From a virus, in IMG/VR virus record IMGVR_UViG_3300042549_007263, positions 1 through 32,760 of that record: a stretch of DNA of 32,760 nucleotides. One strand, written 5' to 3'. Position numbers and translations under genes: made by a program. The first letter of the stretch is position 1; every line of letters begins with the position of its first letter. The notes under the pieces are model-generated. The model saw only the letters and a list, made by a program, of their open reading frames with translations. It had not been told where the DNA came from and made no database searches. Of this stretch, positions 1,797 to 25,866 are shown in pieces.

Positions 1797-3017
1797 TTAT
1801 TTTATTATTGATTTAAAAAATTCTACTCTATCTTTACATACTTTTTTTAATGAGTATGTGTCTTTAACTGTTTCATATAAACGATTACCTAAGTCTTCAA
1901 TCATATTAGGATTCTCAACTAAACGTTTCATATGTTTTGCCCAATCTTTATGGTTCTTCTTAGATCCTACTAATAATGCGTTTCCTTTATTGTTGAACTT
2001 ACCTTCATCAACTGCAGAAATTAAATCGATTGTAAATGGATCAACATCACTTGCAATAATTGCCTTCTTAAAGAATCCCGCTTCAATTACTTTTAATTGT
2101 GATTTGTTTGCGTTAAATACGGACTCAACTAATGGTGCTAATGAAACGTCAAACGTGTTGTAGTTTGTTGCATAACTATTAATATCTTTTGTCCATCTTC
2201 TTCTATATGGTTCATTTATGTCGTTATAATCTCCTTGGGTAAATGTTCCTAAGTAAGATTTATATTCAGGACTTAATACTTTAAAATTATCTGTGAAAAA
2301 TCCTTCGTATTTATACCAAACAGTTTCCATTGGTTGAATCGGTCTTTGTTCTTGTTTACCATTTTGATCAATAACAGTAACACTACCTCTTGTATCAAAT
2401 CCACACAAAACAAATTGAACTTTTTCTTTAAATGAATTATAAGTTGTAGATATACCATTTGACATTAATTCTAAATCATGTAAATGTGAAGATCCTCCTA
2501 ACCAACCAAATCTTATTTTGTCTGACTTAACAGATTTATTTTGAAATTGAGGTTCATCTTCATTTACCGCATTTGGAAAAATAACAACGTTATTAATTTT
2601 TAATTTATCCTTAATTGTTTGTGCAAATATTGAAGTGGTGGTTGTGACATAATCAACGGTCTTTAACATGTCGACTTTCATCTCACCAATTTTATTCATT
2701 TTAATTGCATGATACATTGGATGTCTTTGATCAACAAACCATAAATCATCAATATCCATTACGGTTATAATACCTTTTGATTTTAACCATTTAATTCTAT
2801 TAATGTTATGTTCGTGATTTGTTTGATGAATAAAAGTATGAAAAACTACAATATCGTAGTTTAAAAAATAATCATCTCTATCTTCCGCATTGTACGAAAT
2901 ATCTACGTGAATATCTTCCGAGTGTTTATCTGAAATGAACACAAATGGATCCATTACTCTAAACTTACCTACACCATGTTTATCCGATGGGATTGCTAAA
3001 ATTCTAATTTTTGACAT
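1797..3017 (-). CDS. glycosyltransferase, group 1 (GT4-like, GT-B fold)
   Basis: This 406-residue protein has two Rossmann-like halves typical of GT-B enzymes. The N-terminal half includes DIVVFHTF and GIITVMDIDDLWF (about residues 54-94). The C-terminal half starts near KIRFGWLGGSSH and ends with APLVESVFNANKSQLKVIEAGF, which corresponds to the nucleotide-sugar-binding EX7E-type region of group 1 enzymes; helices follow (LVENPNMIEDLGNRLYETV). No membrane segment is seen. It probably transfers a sugar from a nucleotide donor; the acceptor is unknown (phage DNA, a virion protein or host glycan are all possible). It is one of two glycosyltransferases in the window. Family confidence is good; substrate is unassigned. 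Confidence 0.8.
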   Translation of the reverse strand: MSKIRILAIPSDKHGVGKFRVMDPFVFISDKHSEDIHVDISYNAEDRDDYFLNYDIVVFHTFIHQTNHEHNINRIKWLKSKGIITVMDIDDLWFVDQRHPMYHAIKMNKIGEMKVDMLKTVDYVTTTTSIFAQTIKDKLKINNVVIFPNAVNEDEPQFQNKSVKSDKIRFGWLGGSSHLHDLELMSNGISTTYNSFKEKVQFVLCGFDTRGSVTVIDQNGKQEQRPIQPMETVWYKYEGFFTDNFKVLSPEYKSYLGTFTQGDYNDINEPYRRRWTKDINSYATNYNTFDVSLAPLVESVFNANKSQLKVIEAGFFKKAIIASDVDPFTIDLISAVDEGKFNNKGNALLVGSKKNHKDWAKHMKRLVENPNMIEDLGNRLYETVKDTYSLKKVCKDRVEFFKSIIK

Positions 3018-3069: not shown

Positions 3070-3651
3070 TTACTTCGCTTTATTTACACCTGTAATTTTA
3101 CCCTTAAAAATAGAATCTCCCACCTTTAATACTAAATTCTCATTAATAGATGATGTTGTAGATGCACTAAGGATTTGATTTAATTTTTCATCCATTACTT
3201 TACGAACTGTGTTTTCAATAAGAACGGCAATTGCGTTCATATCAATATTACTACCAGACGATTGTCTTTGTTGTGGTTGTGATTTTTTTGATGAAACTCC
3301 CTCTTGTTCCATTAAACGTTTTGCGCCTTTAACAAAGTCCATATCTAAAGTTTCGTTTAAAGATATAGATTGCATTTGTTCTATTGGGTGGTCGATCATC
3401 GCTTGTTTAATTGCAGGAGATAATTTTGAGTTCATTATTTTATCGACATTCATATTACCACCGACAGGTCTTGTATTAGTTTGTTGTGGAAGTTGTGATT
3501 CCATCAATTCAGATGGGTCAGATAATAACATTTCACTATTAACATGACCTCTTTCGAAGTTTCCTCCATCTACTTTATTCATTACTTTCTTAGCTTGAAC
3601 TAATTTTTTCATTAAATCGTTTTGTGATATTGCTCCTTGACCTTGTGACAT
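3070..3651 (-). CDS. unknown protein, likely virion-associated
   Basis: This 193-residue protein has a Lys-rich helical N-terminus, a low-complexity Gln/Ser stretch (about residues 120-133), a predicted helix AIAVLIENTVRKVMDEKLNQIL and a beta C-terminus ending LVLKVGDSIFKGKITGV. I do not recognise a family. It lies in a run of five minus-strand genes with disordered, repetitive or Lys-rich sequence, the composition often seen in minor virion or scaffold proteins; that role is inference. A TATTTAAT variant of the recurrent element lies at 3655-3662, three bases before the ATG. Confidence 0.6.
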   Translation of the reverse strand: MSQGQGAISQNDLMKKLVQAKKVMNKVDGGNFERGHVNSEMLLSDPSELMESQLPQQTNTRPVGGNMNVDKIMNSKLSPAIKQAMIDHPIEQMQSISLNETLDMDFVKGAKRLMEQEGVSSKKSQPQQRQSSGSNIDMNAIAVLIENTVRKVMDEKLNQILSASTTSSINENLVLKVGDSIFKGKITGVNKAK

Positions 3652-3684
3652 ACTATTAAATATTTTATACTATAATATACTTTT

Positions 3685-4431
3685 TTAAGAAAACATTAAA
3701 TGCTTAATCTTTTTAATACTTTCCTGTAAATTTTTATTTTCCTCATCTTCCTCAGGATTTGGTTCTGGTTTTTCTGCTGACTTTGGTTGAGGTAATTCTT
3801 TTGGTTTTTCTAAGTCAGGTTCAACCCCCGTTGGTTCAGAAGGTTTTGGTTCTTCTTTTGGTGGAGTTACTAACTTCTCAGGTTTTGTTTTAGGTTTTGG
3901 TTGTGGTAATTCTGTCGTCTTCGGTTCTTGCGGAGCAACAGGTTCAACTTTTGGAGTTGGTTCTATTGGAGTAGTCACCGAAGGTTTTGATTTTAAAATT
4001 CTTGGTTTTTTAACTTCAGGTTTGTTAGTCCAATCTGTCGTCACATATGTTACTGTCATAGACTTATCATCACCTTCTTTATAATCAGGTCTTTTTTGAT
4101 CGAACTTTTCATCACTTACTTTTAAATTACCCATACGACTAACCATAAAAGTTCTCCATCCTGTTTTATCAAATCCTTTTTTAGAAACCGATGGTGGTTG
4201 AACATATGCACGAACAACTAAATTACCTCTTTTACTTAAACCTAACGCCACCGCTTCAGCATCAATTCTATTACCTTGTTTTACACTATCCTTTGCAGGT
4301 TTTTTAGGTCCTGTATAGAAAAAAGAAATCTTATTCCTATTTTTGATTGCATCAACTATAGGTTTAGTTTTTGATGTCTTTAAAATATTTTGTTCTTCAA
4401 GTATATCGAAGATTGTGTTAATAAAACTCAT
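3685..4431 (-). CDS. WYL-like domain protein with Pro/Lys-rich tail
   Basis: This is a 248-residue protein. Residues about 24-120 (NRNKISFFYTGP, then RIDAEAVALGLSKRGNLVVRAYV, then GWRTFMVSRMGNLKV) have the strand order of a WYL domain, a small beta fold that senses nucleotides or other ligands in bacterial regulators and defence proteins. There is no helix-turn-helix. Residues about 130-232 are a disordered Pro/Lys/Glu-rich tail. The last residues, LQESIKKIKHLM, match the terminal motif found in the ParB-like protein and in 5125-5616. The ATG overlaps the stop of the upstream repeat protein by one base. The domain call is from pattern recognition only. Confidence 0.5.
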   Translation of the reverse strand: MSFINTIFDILEEQNILKTSKTKPIVDAIKNRNKISFFYTGPKKPAKDSVKQGNRIDAEAVALGLSKRGNLVVRAYVQPPSVSKKGFDKTGWRTFMVSRMGNLKVSDEKFDQKRPDYKEGDDKSMTVTYVTTDWTNKPEVKKPRILKSKPSVTTPIEPTPKVEPVAPQEPKTTELPQPKPKTKPEKLVTPPKEEPKPSEPTGVEPDLEKPKELPQPKSAEKPEPNPEEDEENKNLQESIKKIKHLMFS

Positions 4432-5123
4432 TATGTTGTTGGGTGTCTATTATATTCTTTTTTAGCTCCGTAAGTATTTTTTACGACGTTTTCAGTTCTT
4501 CTAAGTATATCTGTTTTAGAACCAACGGTTCCATTTTCATCTTTAGGTCCTTTACCATTTTCATCACCGTCAGAAATGGCGTCTGGATTTGAACTATTAT
4601 ATTGATTTCTCTTATTAAATTTATTTTTAACTAAATTCTCAGTTCTTTTTAATACGTCAGTTCTTGTCCCAACTTCGCCAGTTTCACCTAACTGTCCTTT
4701 ACCTAATTCATCACCATTAGAAATCGCATTAGGATTATTAACACCATATTGATTATTTCTACCATACGTGTTTTTACTAATTAATAAATTTCTATTTGCA
4801 ATATCTACAGATGTTCCTATTGCAACATTATCATCTTTTTGACCTCTACCTTTTTCATCTCCGTCAGCTAATGCATTTGGATTTGTTAAACTGTATTGAT
4901 TGTTTTCGTTATAAGTGTTTCTACCTAAACTTGAAATTCTATTTTGTATATCGGTTGATGACCCAACTTTACCATCGTCACCTATTTGACCTTTACCTTT
5001 TTCATCACCATCAGATAATGAATTTATATTTCTACTATTGTATAGATTTTTTTCGTTATAAGAATTTCTCGTAATAGATTCTTTTCTAAATTGTTCTGAT
5101 ATTTGATCTAATTTTGTTGCCAT
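4431..5123 (-). CDS. tandem 49-residue repeat protein
   Basis: This 230-residue protein is built almost entirely from four tandem units of exactly 49 residues (19-67, 68-116, 117-165, 166-214) and a fifth partial unit. Each unit reads (R/K)N-x-(Y/F), then N-P-(N/D)-A, then the hallmark (D/N)GDE-x-GKG or close variant, then VG-x-x-x-DI-x-x-R. The repeats have diverged, so this is an old, maintained array rather than recent slippage. The GDE/GKG core is rich in Asp and Gly and might bind metal, but this is untested. Function unknown; the neighbours suggest a structural or assembly role. It overlaps the next gene by one base (TAATG). Confidence 0.7.
   Translation of the reverse strand: MATKLDQISEQFRKESITRNSYNEKNLYNSRNINSLSDGDEKGKGQIGDDGKVGSSTDIQNRISSLGRNTYNENNQYSLTNPNALADGDEKGRGQKDDNVAIGTSVDIANRNLLISKNTYGRNNQYGVNNPNAISNGDELGKGQLGETGEVGTRTDVLKRTENLVKNKFNKRNQYNSSNPDAISDGDENGKGPKDENGTVGSKTDILRRTENVVKNTYGAKKEYNRHPTT
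4482..5069 (-). repeat. four tandem 147-bp coding repeats (49 residues each)
   Basis: Four in-frame units of 147 bp were counted from the translation, with a partial fifth running to the gene end. The units are diverged at DNA level and keep the N-P-N-A and DGDE-x-GKG positions. Confidence 0.8.
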
Positions 5124-22707: not shown

Positions 22708-22911
22708 ATGAACGAGAAACTAAACGAATTATTCAGTATCTGTGGGATTAACGATTTTGTGTTCCACTTACAAAAAGAGGGGGAAACTAACTATATAGAC
22801 TATACTTTATATCCTAAAAAAATTGTGGTGAACGTTCCTGATATTGAAGATACGGAATTTGAACAGTTATTAACTGATAAAATTAAGGAACTAAAGGAGA
22901 CTTTTAAGTAG
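22708..22911 (+). CDS. small protein of unknown function
   Basis: This 67-residue acidic protein has helical ends and a central strand pair (NYIDYTLYPKKIVVNVP). It starts opposite the gp13-like gene and its last 21 bases overlap the 3' end of the helicase gene on the other strand. No family recognised. Confidence 0.5.
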   Translation: MNEKLNELFSICGINDFVFHLQKEGETNYIDYTLYPKKIVVNVPDIEDTEFEQLLTDKIKELKETFK

Positions 22912-24642
22912 GTCTTTACTGAACGATTCTGAATATTCTCCGTCACCCATTACTTGGTCAATGACGTTCTTTTTCTTTTGTAAAATATTATAAATTACCT
23001 TTTCAATTGTATTCTCAAAAACGGGATAATAAACTAATACACTATTCTTTTGACCATAACGATACGCTCTATCTTCACCTTGTGAATGATCCGCCGGAAC
23101 AAATGATAAGTCATTCATTATAACAACTTCGGCGGCAGTTAATGTAATACCAACACCGGCAGCTTTAATATTTCCGATAAATACTTTTACCTTATCTTCA
23201 TTTTGAAATCTATCAACTGAATCTTGTCTTTTATCTTTTGACATACGACCATCAAGTGTTACAGAATTCTTTTTATATTTGTCATGTAACATATCAAGTG
23301 TCATAGTGAAGTTAGTTAACACAATAACTTTCTTTCCTTGTTCCAAACATTTATCTATCAATTCACAAGTATACGGAATTTTTTCGTAAGAAATAAGTTG
23401 TCTAATTTTCATTAAACGATTTAATGTAACGCTAATTGTTTCATCATTTTTCTTATCGTTGGTAATTCGTGTAAATTCTTCTAACTCTTCATCATACATT
23501 TTACTTGTAAGTTCAACAAACACAGGAGTAACAATCTTTTCAGGTAAGTCAAGAATATCTGTTTTCATTCTACGAAGAACATATGATTTAGTTCTCTCAC
23601 GTAATTCGTCTAAATTACTTGCTCCACTTGTGTTCCACACCTTTCTATTACCTACTGTAAATTGATATCCTTTACAATATCTACGAACGTAAGATTGCCA
23701 ATTTAATGTTAAAGGTGAATCAACAATTTTTAATAAGTTGAAATAGTTGATAGGTCTTGATGTCATTGGTGTTCCCGTTAATAACCATACCTTAGGAATT
23801 TGTTCTAACACATCATTTAATAAACGTGTTCTATTTGCGGTAGTGTTAGAAATATAATGTGCTTCATCTACAATTGCTAAGTCAAATTTTTCATTTACTA
23901 ATAATTTATAATCATCACTATCTTCACTCTTATCTGTTGTGTGATAATTTTTTATAATATCATAATTGATAATATAGAAATCAAATGTAGATCCCCACTT
24001 ACGACCTTCAACAATTAACACACGTCTATCAGAGTAATTTGCAATCTCTCTTTGCCAATTAATTTTAAGTGATGCGGGACAAACAATTAAAACTTTTTTT
24101 GCACCACATTCCAACGCCCCAATAACCGCTGACGTAGTCTTACCTAAACCCATATCATCAGCTAAAATAAATTTGTCGTTTGCTAATAATTTTTCAATTG
24201 CCACTTTTTGATGTTCCATTGGAGGTCTGACATCATATGGACTATAATCAATAACTCTATTTAATTTCTTTTCTTCTTGAACAATTGCGGCCTTTGGTAA
24301 CCACATTGCATGGTTTTGTTGACGTTCAAATACTTTACCCCAAATATGATAAGCTTTATCAGACTCACATAATAATTTTTCACACCATACTTTATCGGGT
24401 GGAGTTGGTAATAACATTTCTTCCATCAATTTATCACCAAATGTGGAAACAATATTAATATGTTTACGAGCAACCTTAGGAACTGTATCTTTATATTTAA
24501 TTACATACTCCGACTGTGGACGAGTTAATTTAAAATTTTTAACTTCCACGAATTTACGTTTGTATTCTAATAAAACATTATTAGATCCTTCGTATTCATT
24601 TAATATATCTCTCGCTTCAACCTCAGGTATTTTTCTTTCCAT
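22891..24642 (-). CDS. SNF2-family DNA helicase/translocase
   Basis: This 583-residue enzyme has all core motifs. Walker A is DDMGLGKT (162-169), the Ia region is VLIVCPASLKINW, the DEAH box is at 259-262 (AIVDEAHYISN), motif III is LLTGTPM (287-293), motif V is NIKAAGVGITL (491-501) and motif VI is SQGEDRAYRYGQ (520-531). Domain order and the QxxDRxxRxGQ-type motif VI place it with SNF2 translocases such as HepA and SMARCAL1, which remodel forks or anneal strands; T4 UvsW has a comparable role in phage. I start at ATG 24642 (MERKIPEVEARD) rather than 24696, because the longer frame overlaps the GT25 gene and a decayed second copy of this exact start lies upstream. Confidence 0.92.
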   Translation of the reverse strand: MERKIPEVEARDILNEYEGSNNVLLEYKRKFVEVKNFKLTRPQSEYVIKYKDTVPKVARKHINIVSTFGDKLMEEMLLPTPPDKVWCEKLLCESDKAYHIWGKVFERQQNHAMWLPKAAIVQEEKKLNRVIDYSPYDVRPPMEHQKVAIEKLLANDKFILADDMGLGKTTSAVIGALECGAKKVLIVCPASLKINWQREIANYSDRRVLIVEGRKWGSTFDFYIINYDIIKNYHTTDKSEDSDDYKLLVNEKFDLAIVDEAHYISNTTANRTRLLNDVLEQIPKVWLLTGTPMTSRPINYFNLLKIVDSPLTLNWQSYVRRYCKGYQFTVGNRKVWNTSGASNLDELRERTKSYVLRRMKTDILDLPEKIVTPVFVELTSKMYDEELEEFTRITNDKKNDETISVTLNRLMKIRQLISYEKIPYTCELIDKCLEQGKKVIVLTNFTMTLDMLHDKYKKNSVTLDGRMSKDKRQDSVDRFQNEDKVKVFIGNIKAAGVGITLTAAEVVIMNDLSFVPADHSQGEDRAYRYGQKNSVLVYYPVFENTIEKVIYNILQKKKNVIDQVMGDGEYSESFSKDLLKSLL

Positions 24643-24651
24643 CGTATTATA
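24601..24651 (-). repeat. helicase 5' end copy of a 51-bp direct repeat
   Basis: This is the first 14 codons of the helicase plus 9 upstream bases. It matches 25257-25307 at about 42 of 51 positions, and the first 32 bases from the start side (24620-24651) match at 30 of 32. Confidence 0.85.
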
Positions 24652-25255
24652 ATAATTTTTTATCTTTATTATGATGAGCAATTCGTTTATAACCATTTGG
24701 TGCTAAATTCGAAATAAATTTATTTTGGACCTGAATAAACATTGGGGTTGGTAAATAAAGATATTTAAGATGAGTTATCTTATGTAGTTCCACATCATAC
24801 GCTTGAGTAATTCGTATAGAGTTATAATGTAATAATAATTTTTCTGCACCCTCCCAACTTACTGCATATGAATAACAATTCATTCCCAATTCTCCTAATT
24901 TAAAAACATCAAACGTGTCCCAATCAATATTACCACAATCAAAGTGATTTACATAATCTAAATCATCCTCTATTAAAATAATGTTAGTTTTGTTATCGAC
25001 TGACCATTTTAAAATATTCATATGTGAAATGAACGTGGCCATTACCGCATCAACTATTACATCCCATTCATAAAAATCTACATATTTAAAATATCGTTCC
25101 CTTACTTCATCGGTTATTTCTTCAGGTGTCGTAGCATCCCAAAATTCAAAATCTAACCCAATCTTATCTTTTATAGAAATCATCCAATCTCTTCTATCCT
25201 TATTTGATTTTAAAGATAAACACCATACTTTATATGTTTGATTAGTTGAATTCAT
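24647..25255 (-). CDS. glycosyltransferase family 25 protein
   Basis: This 202-residue protein opens with VWCLSLKSNKDRRDWM, the family 25 signature strand-loop-helix. It carries LIEDDLDY (Glu96-Asp97-Asp98), the acidic donor/metal site, and later SYAVSWEGAEKLLLH, the typical distal motif. GT25 includes bacterial LPS galactosyltransferases and eukaryotic collagen galactosyltransferases. The acceptor is unknown; a phage fibre or host LPS are possible. The gene lies between the helicase start and a degenerate copy of that start, so it appears to have been inserted there. Its stop is four bases before the helicase ATG. Its own ATG lies in the remnant helicase sequence. Confidence 0.85.
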   Translation of the reverse strand: MNSTNQTYKVWCLSLKSNKDRRDWMISIKDKIGLDFEFWDATTPEEITDEVRERYFKYVDFYEWDVIVDAVMATFISHMNILKWSVDNKTNIILIEDDLDYVNHFDCGNIDWDTFDVFKLGELGMNCYSYAVSWEGAEKLLLHYNSIRITQAYDVELHKITHLKYLYLPTPMFIQVQNKFISNLAPNGYKRIAHHNKDKKLL

Positions 25256-25256
25256 T

Positions 25257-25307
25257 TAATATATTCTTTCATTCGACCTCAGATATTTTTCTTTCCGTCG
25301 TATTATA
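25257..25307 (-). pseudogene. relic of the SNF2 helicase start (TERKISEVE-stop)
   Basis: On the minus strand this segment reads ACG-GAA-AGA-AAA-ATA-TCT-GAG and translates TERKISEVE then TGA, matching the helicase MERKIPEVEA. The start codon is ACG instead of ATG and codon 10 is TGA instead of GCG, so it is dead. The GT25 ATG is created out of frame inside the next codons (AAATGAA). Confidence 0.85.
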
Positions 25308-25339
25308 TATAATATAACTAAATAGAATGTATTATTAAA

Positions 25340-25348
25340 CTATTTATT
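25340..25348 (+). promoter_or_regulatory. TATTTATT element upstream of 25354
   Basis: CTATTTATT ends five bases before the ATG at 25354, downstream of the dead helicase copy and on the opposite strand. Confidence 0.45.
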
Positions 25349-25353
25349 AGGAT

Positions 25354-25866
25354 ATGAACAATAAACTACCAATTACTCGTTTAGGTAAATTTTTCTCACA
25401 GGACGACTTTGATATTAACATTCAGATGGGTCAGGAGTATCTACACGGGGATTTGAATATGAAATTGGTCTTATATCGTGTTGATAGACAAAAGACCGAC
25501 AATGACAACGTATACGCTGAGGTGGGTATGGACGAGATTAAGTTTTTTCCTCCCGTTGAGTTTAATGCGTTAGTTAAAATCGATGAACCTAAAAATTCAA
25601 CATATACGAAAGGTTTAATGAGATATAGTGAACCAGGTAATTTAACATTATCAGTTTATATTACACATCTTAATGAATTAGGGGTGGATATTAGATACGG
25701 TGATTATATAGGGTATGCAGATTCAGAAGAAAGAATAAGATATTACACAGTTACAAATGACGGTAGAGTAACATCAGATAATAAACATAAAATGTTTGGG
25801 TACAAACCACACTATAGAACGATAGTTTGTGCTCCAACACAAGAAGGTGAATTTAGAGGAGTTTAA
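25354..25866 (+). CDS. putative neck protein (gp14-like)
   Basis: This is a 170-residue beta-rich protein containing VYITHLNELGVDIRYGDYIGY, with GDYIGYADSEERIRYY reminiscent of the GDLIYFP-x-x-x-x-x-x-E pattern of T4-type gp14. It starts the operon that continues with gp15-like, sheath and tube proteins, which fits a neck or tail-completion role. Homology is suggested by order and pattern only. The next gene's ATG follows one base after its stop. Confidence 0.4.
   Translation: MNNKLPITRLGKFFSQDDFDINIQMGQEYLHGDLNMKLVLYRVDRQKTDNDNVYAEVGMDEIKFFPPVEFNALVKIDEPKNSTYTKGLMRYSEPGNLTLSVYITHLNELGVDIRYGDYIGYADSEERIRYYTVTNDGRVTSDNKHKMFGYKPHYRTIVCAPTQEGEFRGV

Follow-up and report, generated by a model that had tools for sequence, protein, structure and literature searches.

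A GT25 glycosyltransferase gene lies between a helicase gene and a decayed copy of the helicase start in a large T4-like phage

Phages are rich in single "moron" cargo genes, and the route by which such a gene enters a packed lytic genome is usually unreadable. Among the closest described systems, restriction-modification genes are known to have entered genomes by insertion with long target duplication (PMC3031569), and transposed genes of Arabidopsis are likewise marked by long flanking repeats of target sequence (PMC2869330). In fungal mitochondria (atp6 of Allomyces and Glomus), mobile open reading frames of the homing endonuclease type replace the end of a gene (PMC3630166). T4-like phages carry promoter-less, free-standing homing endonuclease cassettes between core genes, where the cassettes use the upstream promoter and displace transcription starts (PMC2988022). 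The locus described here resembles the restriction-modification case (Nobusato et al. 2000, cited in PMC3031569) in that the cargo lies between target copies far longer than a transposon footprint, no transposase is present, and the empty relative has one copy; it differs in that the cargo is a glycosyltransferase gene, the genome is that of a phage, one copy is decayed, and no restriction-modification or mobility gene is present (PMC3031569). On the best reading, insertion with long target duplication has here taken place in a phage. As in the fungal mitochondrial DNA, the insert interrupts a host gene whose protein is restored by a substitute end, and the native end stays behind as an unused relic, but there the 3′ end is involved, the insert is an endonuclease gene, and the substitute end is foreign (PMC3630166), whereas here the 5′ end is affected, the insert encodes no nuclease, and the substitute end looks self-derived. 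With the T4-like homing endonuclease genes (PMC2988022) the locus shares a promoter-less cassette between core genes, and in one relative (L075) this very site is occupied by a homing endonuclease gene, although GT25 itself is no endonuclease. In the open-licence literature, our search turned up no earlier description of a phage cargo gene accompanied by a re-made 5′ end and a decayed native start. The states before and after the event, a donor-like gene cluster, and the unused relic are all visible at this locus, so that the order of events is legible base by base.

The window, that is, the whole stretch of DNA analysed, is a viral record of 32,760 bp that is syntenic with a 217-kb relative (G010). 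Pfam and PHROG profile searches revealed T4-type features, namely a tail sheath, a B-family polymerase, and an SNF2 helicase, and the helicase-bearing genome is that of a large T4-like phage. Read along the minus strand, the divergent neck start at 25354 is followed by GT25 and then by the helicase start at 24642. The features of the locus are as follows.

22891 to 24642, minus strand: SNF2-type helicase, 583 aa, start ATG 24642 (Pfam SNF2-rel_dom 5e-27, Helicase_C 6e-18; PHROG 62 DNA helicase)
23977 to 24642, minus strand: helicase tract of ~666 bp adjoining the insert, 94% identical to relative L003, with both outer flanks at 99-100%
24594 to 24651, minus strand: intact repeat copy C1, the re-made helicase 5′ end, with 9 bp of leader and codons 1-16, 49/58 identical to C2
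24647 to 25255, minus strand: GT25 glycosyltransferase gene, 202 aa, the inserted cargo (PF01755, 3.6e-10)
25250 to 25307, minus strand: decayed repeat copy C2, the original helicase 5′ end, with ACG (25298-25296) for ATG and TGA (25271-25269) at codon 10
25299 to 25353, minus strand: original helicase leader and divergent intergenic region, now the GT25 leader (51 distinct empty intergenic sequences aligned)
25340 to 25347, minus strand: ATAAATAG motif, conserved at >90% among the 51 intergenic sequences, now upstream of GT25
25354 to 25866, plus strand: "neck" gene (a label only; Pfam and PHROG searches gave no match), the divergent neighbour and fixed landmark of the empty site, with 99.8% DNA identity to L003

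The initial annotation had reported a 51-bp repeat of the helicase start at about 82% identity, and 42 of the 51 positions (82%) match at an offset of 656. The repeat is real but extends further than claimed, over 58 bp (24594-24651 versus 25250-25307, 49/58 = 84%, also found by a repeat tool), and takes in helicase codons 1-16 rather than 1-14. Both base calls given for the second copy, ACG in place of ATG and TGA at codon 10, were correct. The GT25 ATG (25255-25253), placed within the remnant by the same annotation, does lie inside the 58-bp repeat and out of the helicase frame, but just outside the boundary of 25257 originally drawn. In an all-diagonal scan of the window the repeat pair scored 35.5; the highest score was 17 when gene starts elsewhere in the family were compared with their upstream sequence, and 15 for internal-segment controls. 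Because these controls are far lower and the comparable or better hits of the window fall in repetitive tail-fibre or repeat-protein coding sequence, the repeat is not a chance match. At 58 bp and 84%, this flanking direct repeat exceeds the usual transposon target duplications in length. We rejected the notion that it is a conserved regulatory element, since relatives carry one copy. The decayed copy also holds a tiny open reading frame (ATGAAAGAATATATTAAATGA; 25252-25272, minus strand) whose stop overlaps the GT25 start and which may be accidental or may serve as a coupling leader.

Searches of IMG/VR with the helicase, made twice and giving 80 loci each, together yielded about 102 contigs by name with the same helicase and neck genes, many of them contig fragments. 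The helicase and neck starts are 46-60 nt apart, with no gene between, in 101 of the 102 contigs; the single exception is L075 (= L086), with 878 nt between the starts. All ten of the closest relatives (L002-L011; 97-99% protein identity) have exactly 56 nt between the two starts, and the same 56 nt separate the dead start from the neck ATG in the window (25354 minus 25298). The decayed copy keeps the ancestral spacing to the neck gene and is therefore the original helicase start, at its original position; the intact copy fused to the helicase is the new, re-made one. L002, L003, L004, L006, and L010 each agree with the window at every one of the 78 nucleotides that precede the dead start (78/78), and the codon bases of C1 match the empty-site relative L010 at 45 of 48 positions, the match running on for 34/34 into the helicase. 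When the window flanks were joined at the repeat by script, the resulting empty-site model aligned with L003 over 8,642 nt with 0 gaps. The comparison with GT25-free relatives for which the initial annotation had called thus gave the predicted result: in five of them the sequence before the helicase is that found upstream of the remnant, joined directly to the helicase start. We conclude that GT25 was inserted, that the 5′ end of its target was duplicated, as the annotation had proposed for the acquisition of the gene, and that ATG 24642 is correctly assigned as the helicase start, relatives beginning at the corresponding position. A longer open reading frame from 24696 was considered as the helicase start and rejected on that basis. 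The net change is +656 bp, made up of one gene and a 58-bp target duplication (9 bp of leader plus codons 1-16). Neither of the contrary outcomes named beforehand, identical copies split by other genes or a repeat unrelated to the helicase, was seen. GT25 was absent from the helicase/neck site in all 102 related contigs, and from elsewhere in those searched whole; two junction 24-mers had no match in IMG/VR, and the GT25-bearing allele is known from one contig.

The inserted gene matched the GT25 profile PF01755 over residues 10-101 with 40.5 bits (cut-off 24) and the solved GT25 structures 8xlz/8xc8 at E 1e-4, and its acidic EDD.D motif (IEDDLD in the window) is conserved in three relatives. 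On the basis of these matches, the product is predicted to have sugar-transfer activity and presumably adds sugar to a host or virion glycan. GT25 is the only open reading frame of the insert, which encodes no transposase, recombinase, or endonuclease. Relatives of the gene are rare, with one contig at 80% amino acid identity (L082, in G001) and two at 51% (L084 and L085); phage isolate records gave no match, and no bacterial or archaeal source was found among 84,980 species genomes at the sensitivity used. The L082 gene belongs to a glycan gene cluster on a different phage contig, together with a DegT aminotransferase and several transferase-like genes. The relative in L084 is flanked by genes similar to those of this cluster, and G010 has relatives of some of the cluster genes at 4-25 kb, without GT25. 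A further glycosyltransferase-like protein (PHROG 7162) is encoded in the window at 1797-3017 on the minus strand and is 92-93% conserved in G005 and G010.

The L082 gene is tightly packed, with 1 nt separating its stop from the next ATG, and its start and stop line up with the edges of the insert; the donor is known only as this 80% relative, so the exact insert edges are uncertain. At the 5′ edge, the donor-like gene and the target have the 8-nt sequence ATATTAAA in common, with an ATG closely after, and at the 3′ edge they have TAATA (5 nt) in common, or TATAATA (7 nt) if the real donor used TTA and not TTG. The GT25 ATG lies within a short stretch common to the target (ATATTAAATG) and the nearest donor-like gene (ATATTAAAAATG), and therefore either could have supplied the start that was first credited to the duplicated target. 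Among random window pairs, 2.6% contained an 8-nt match and 32% a 5-nt match; in AT-rich DNA these edge microhomologies are statistically weak and suggestive only.

GT25 was probably copied into the 5′ end of the helicase gene by illegitimate recombination that duplicated the target, whether guided by microhomology or through template switching; in T4, microhomology junctions are documented in illegitimate double-strand-break repair (PMC2988022). One GT25 gene, of the kind found in phage glycan clusters, would thereby have been copied into the SNF2 helicase. DNA synthesis or break repair would have passed through helicase codons 1-16, switched at ATATTAAA to the donor GT25 gene, copied it as far as the stop codon, and switched back at TATAATA or TAATA to the helicase leader, with the leader and start then being copied a second time. 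The recombinant would have been viable because the helicase was left intact. The redundant first copy would afterwards have decayed, its ATG lost and a stop gained, so that the former helicase promoter came to be followed first by GT25 and then by the helicase, and the allele or adjoining region may later have taken part in homologous recombination between phages.

Of the 43 differences from L003 in the helicase gene, 41 fall in the first 666 nt, and identity is 99-100% on the neck side and in the rest of the helicase; divergent sequence between near-identical flanks indicates a recombination tract that ends at the insert. Eight of the 43 positions are unique to the window and five to L003. 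Either the insertion allele may have moved between related phages by homologous recombination or the tract in L003 may have been replaced. C1 lies in this 94% tract and could not be traced to a donor; the new end in L075 is divergent. The main rival to copying with target duplication draws on these facts: a donor phage with GT25 before an intact helicase would have given both GT25 and the first ~666 bp of the helicase, through a homologous crossover in the helicase and an illegitimate junction in resident codon 16, C2 being the resident remnant and C1 the donor end. In favour of such an import, the divergent tract begins exactly at the insert and ends in 99.8% identity, and the re-made neck start of L075 is clearly divergent from its remnant; the mobile reading frames of fungal mitochondrial DNA provide a precedent (PMC3630166). 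However, GT25 would already have had to enter the donor between its promoter and its start, a state of which the 102 contigs yielded no example, and the 9 bp preceding C1 are the same as in the target leader. Furthermore, C1 and C2 both have T at the third base of codon 12, where close relatives have A, and both copies are nearest to the same clade, L010/L113 (C1 at 45/48, C2 at 40/48). The shared clade and the codon-12 T favour duplication of the recipient's own sequence, but this T is one character only, within a stretch that is scrambled, and at positions 30 and 33 C2 resembles L003, not C1. On balance we regard import of a foreign helicase end as unlikely.

The same final structure would result if the helicase 5′ end had been duplicated in tandem by slippage or unequal crossing-over and GT25 had been inserted between the copies later. 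This order of events requires two steps, and the edges of GT25 coincide with those of the repeat, and a tandem duplicate without insert occurs in 0 of the 51 distinct intergenic sequences, which makes it improbable. An assembly chimera or a chance repeat, with no biological insertion at all, might be suspected of an allele present in one contig only. Such an artefact is very improbable: C2 matches no intact helicase start and has lost its start and gained a stop, the leader matches at 78/78, there are zero gaps over 8.6 kb, and the repeat score is far above controls.

Under the preferred reading, in which GT25 was copied in with duplication of the target, the gene would be expressed from what had been the helicase leader. 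The ATAAATAG motif, which lies upstream of the relic, resembles the -10 element of T4-type late promoters and may act as the promoter. GT25 would be translated first, the competing helicase ATG having been destroyed, and the helicase would be translated from the re-made start 4 nt after the GT25 stop. Scans for sigma-70 promoters and terminators gave chance-level results, and TATAAATA was not clearly more frequent in the window than expected.

The one relative with an occupied site carries a different gene there. At 3106-3876 (minus strand), L075 encodes a 256-aa protein with a GIY-YIG-type start (GKIYIGQ), a NUMOD3 motif, and matches to homing endonuclease profiles, and this gene separates the neck gene from a relic of its former start (about 3900-3932). 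Next to the helicase, the old neck 5′ end (ATGAACAATAAACTACCAATAACAAGATTA...) still occupies its ancestral position; it is identical to relative L038 at 34 of 36 positions and reaches a stop after 17 codons. The working neck gene starts past the endonuclease with the divergent end MSNNRIPITRIS, and the endonuclease stop overlaps the new neck start. Together with the insertion in the window, this arrangement means that two unrelated genes entered one site, into opposite neighbours, each leaving a displaced-start relic. The divergent neck end fits import along with the endonuclease and might confer resistance to the enzyme's own cutting. The parallel insertion suggests a shared, testable route, and tentatively the helicase/neck intergenic site could be a recurrent target, with foreign genes entering a core gene at its 5′ end and a new start being made on each occasion. 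If so, entry perhaps follows homing-endonuclease breaks at this site, and genes without mobility functions would have a general route to acquire the promoter of a core gene while leaving that gene functional.

Other phages can be searched for the signature that such a dead-start relic provides. Comparison of gene starts with upstream copies in 84 non-redundant loci (418 open reading frames) gave nothing clearly above chance, with only the first ATG of each reading frame considered, so that the pair in the window was itself missed. A diagonal scan of the window, G001, G004, G005, G010 (217 kb), part of G029, and L075 showed no second obvious case, and the strongest hits in G005, G010, and the window were repeat proteins. 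At 4431-5123 (minus strand) the window encodes a protein of about four repeats of ~49 residues (SDGDEKGKGQ...), which G005 and G010 also have. Between 6394 and 14944 the window encodes a series of long proteins that resemble tail fibres, contain many PTPTPTP and GSSGTSG repeats, and are poorly conserved between relatives.
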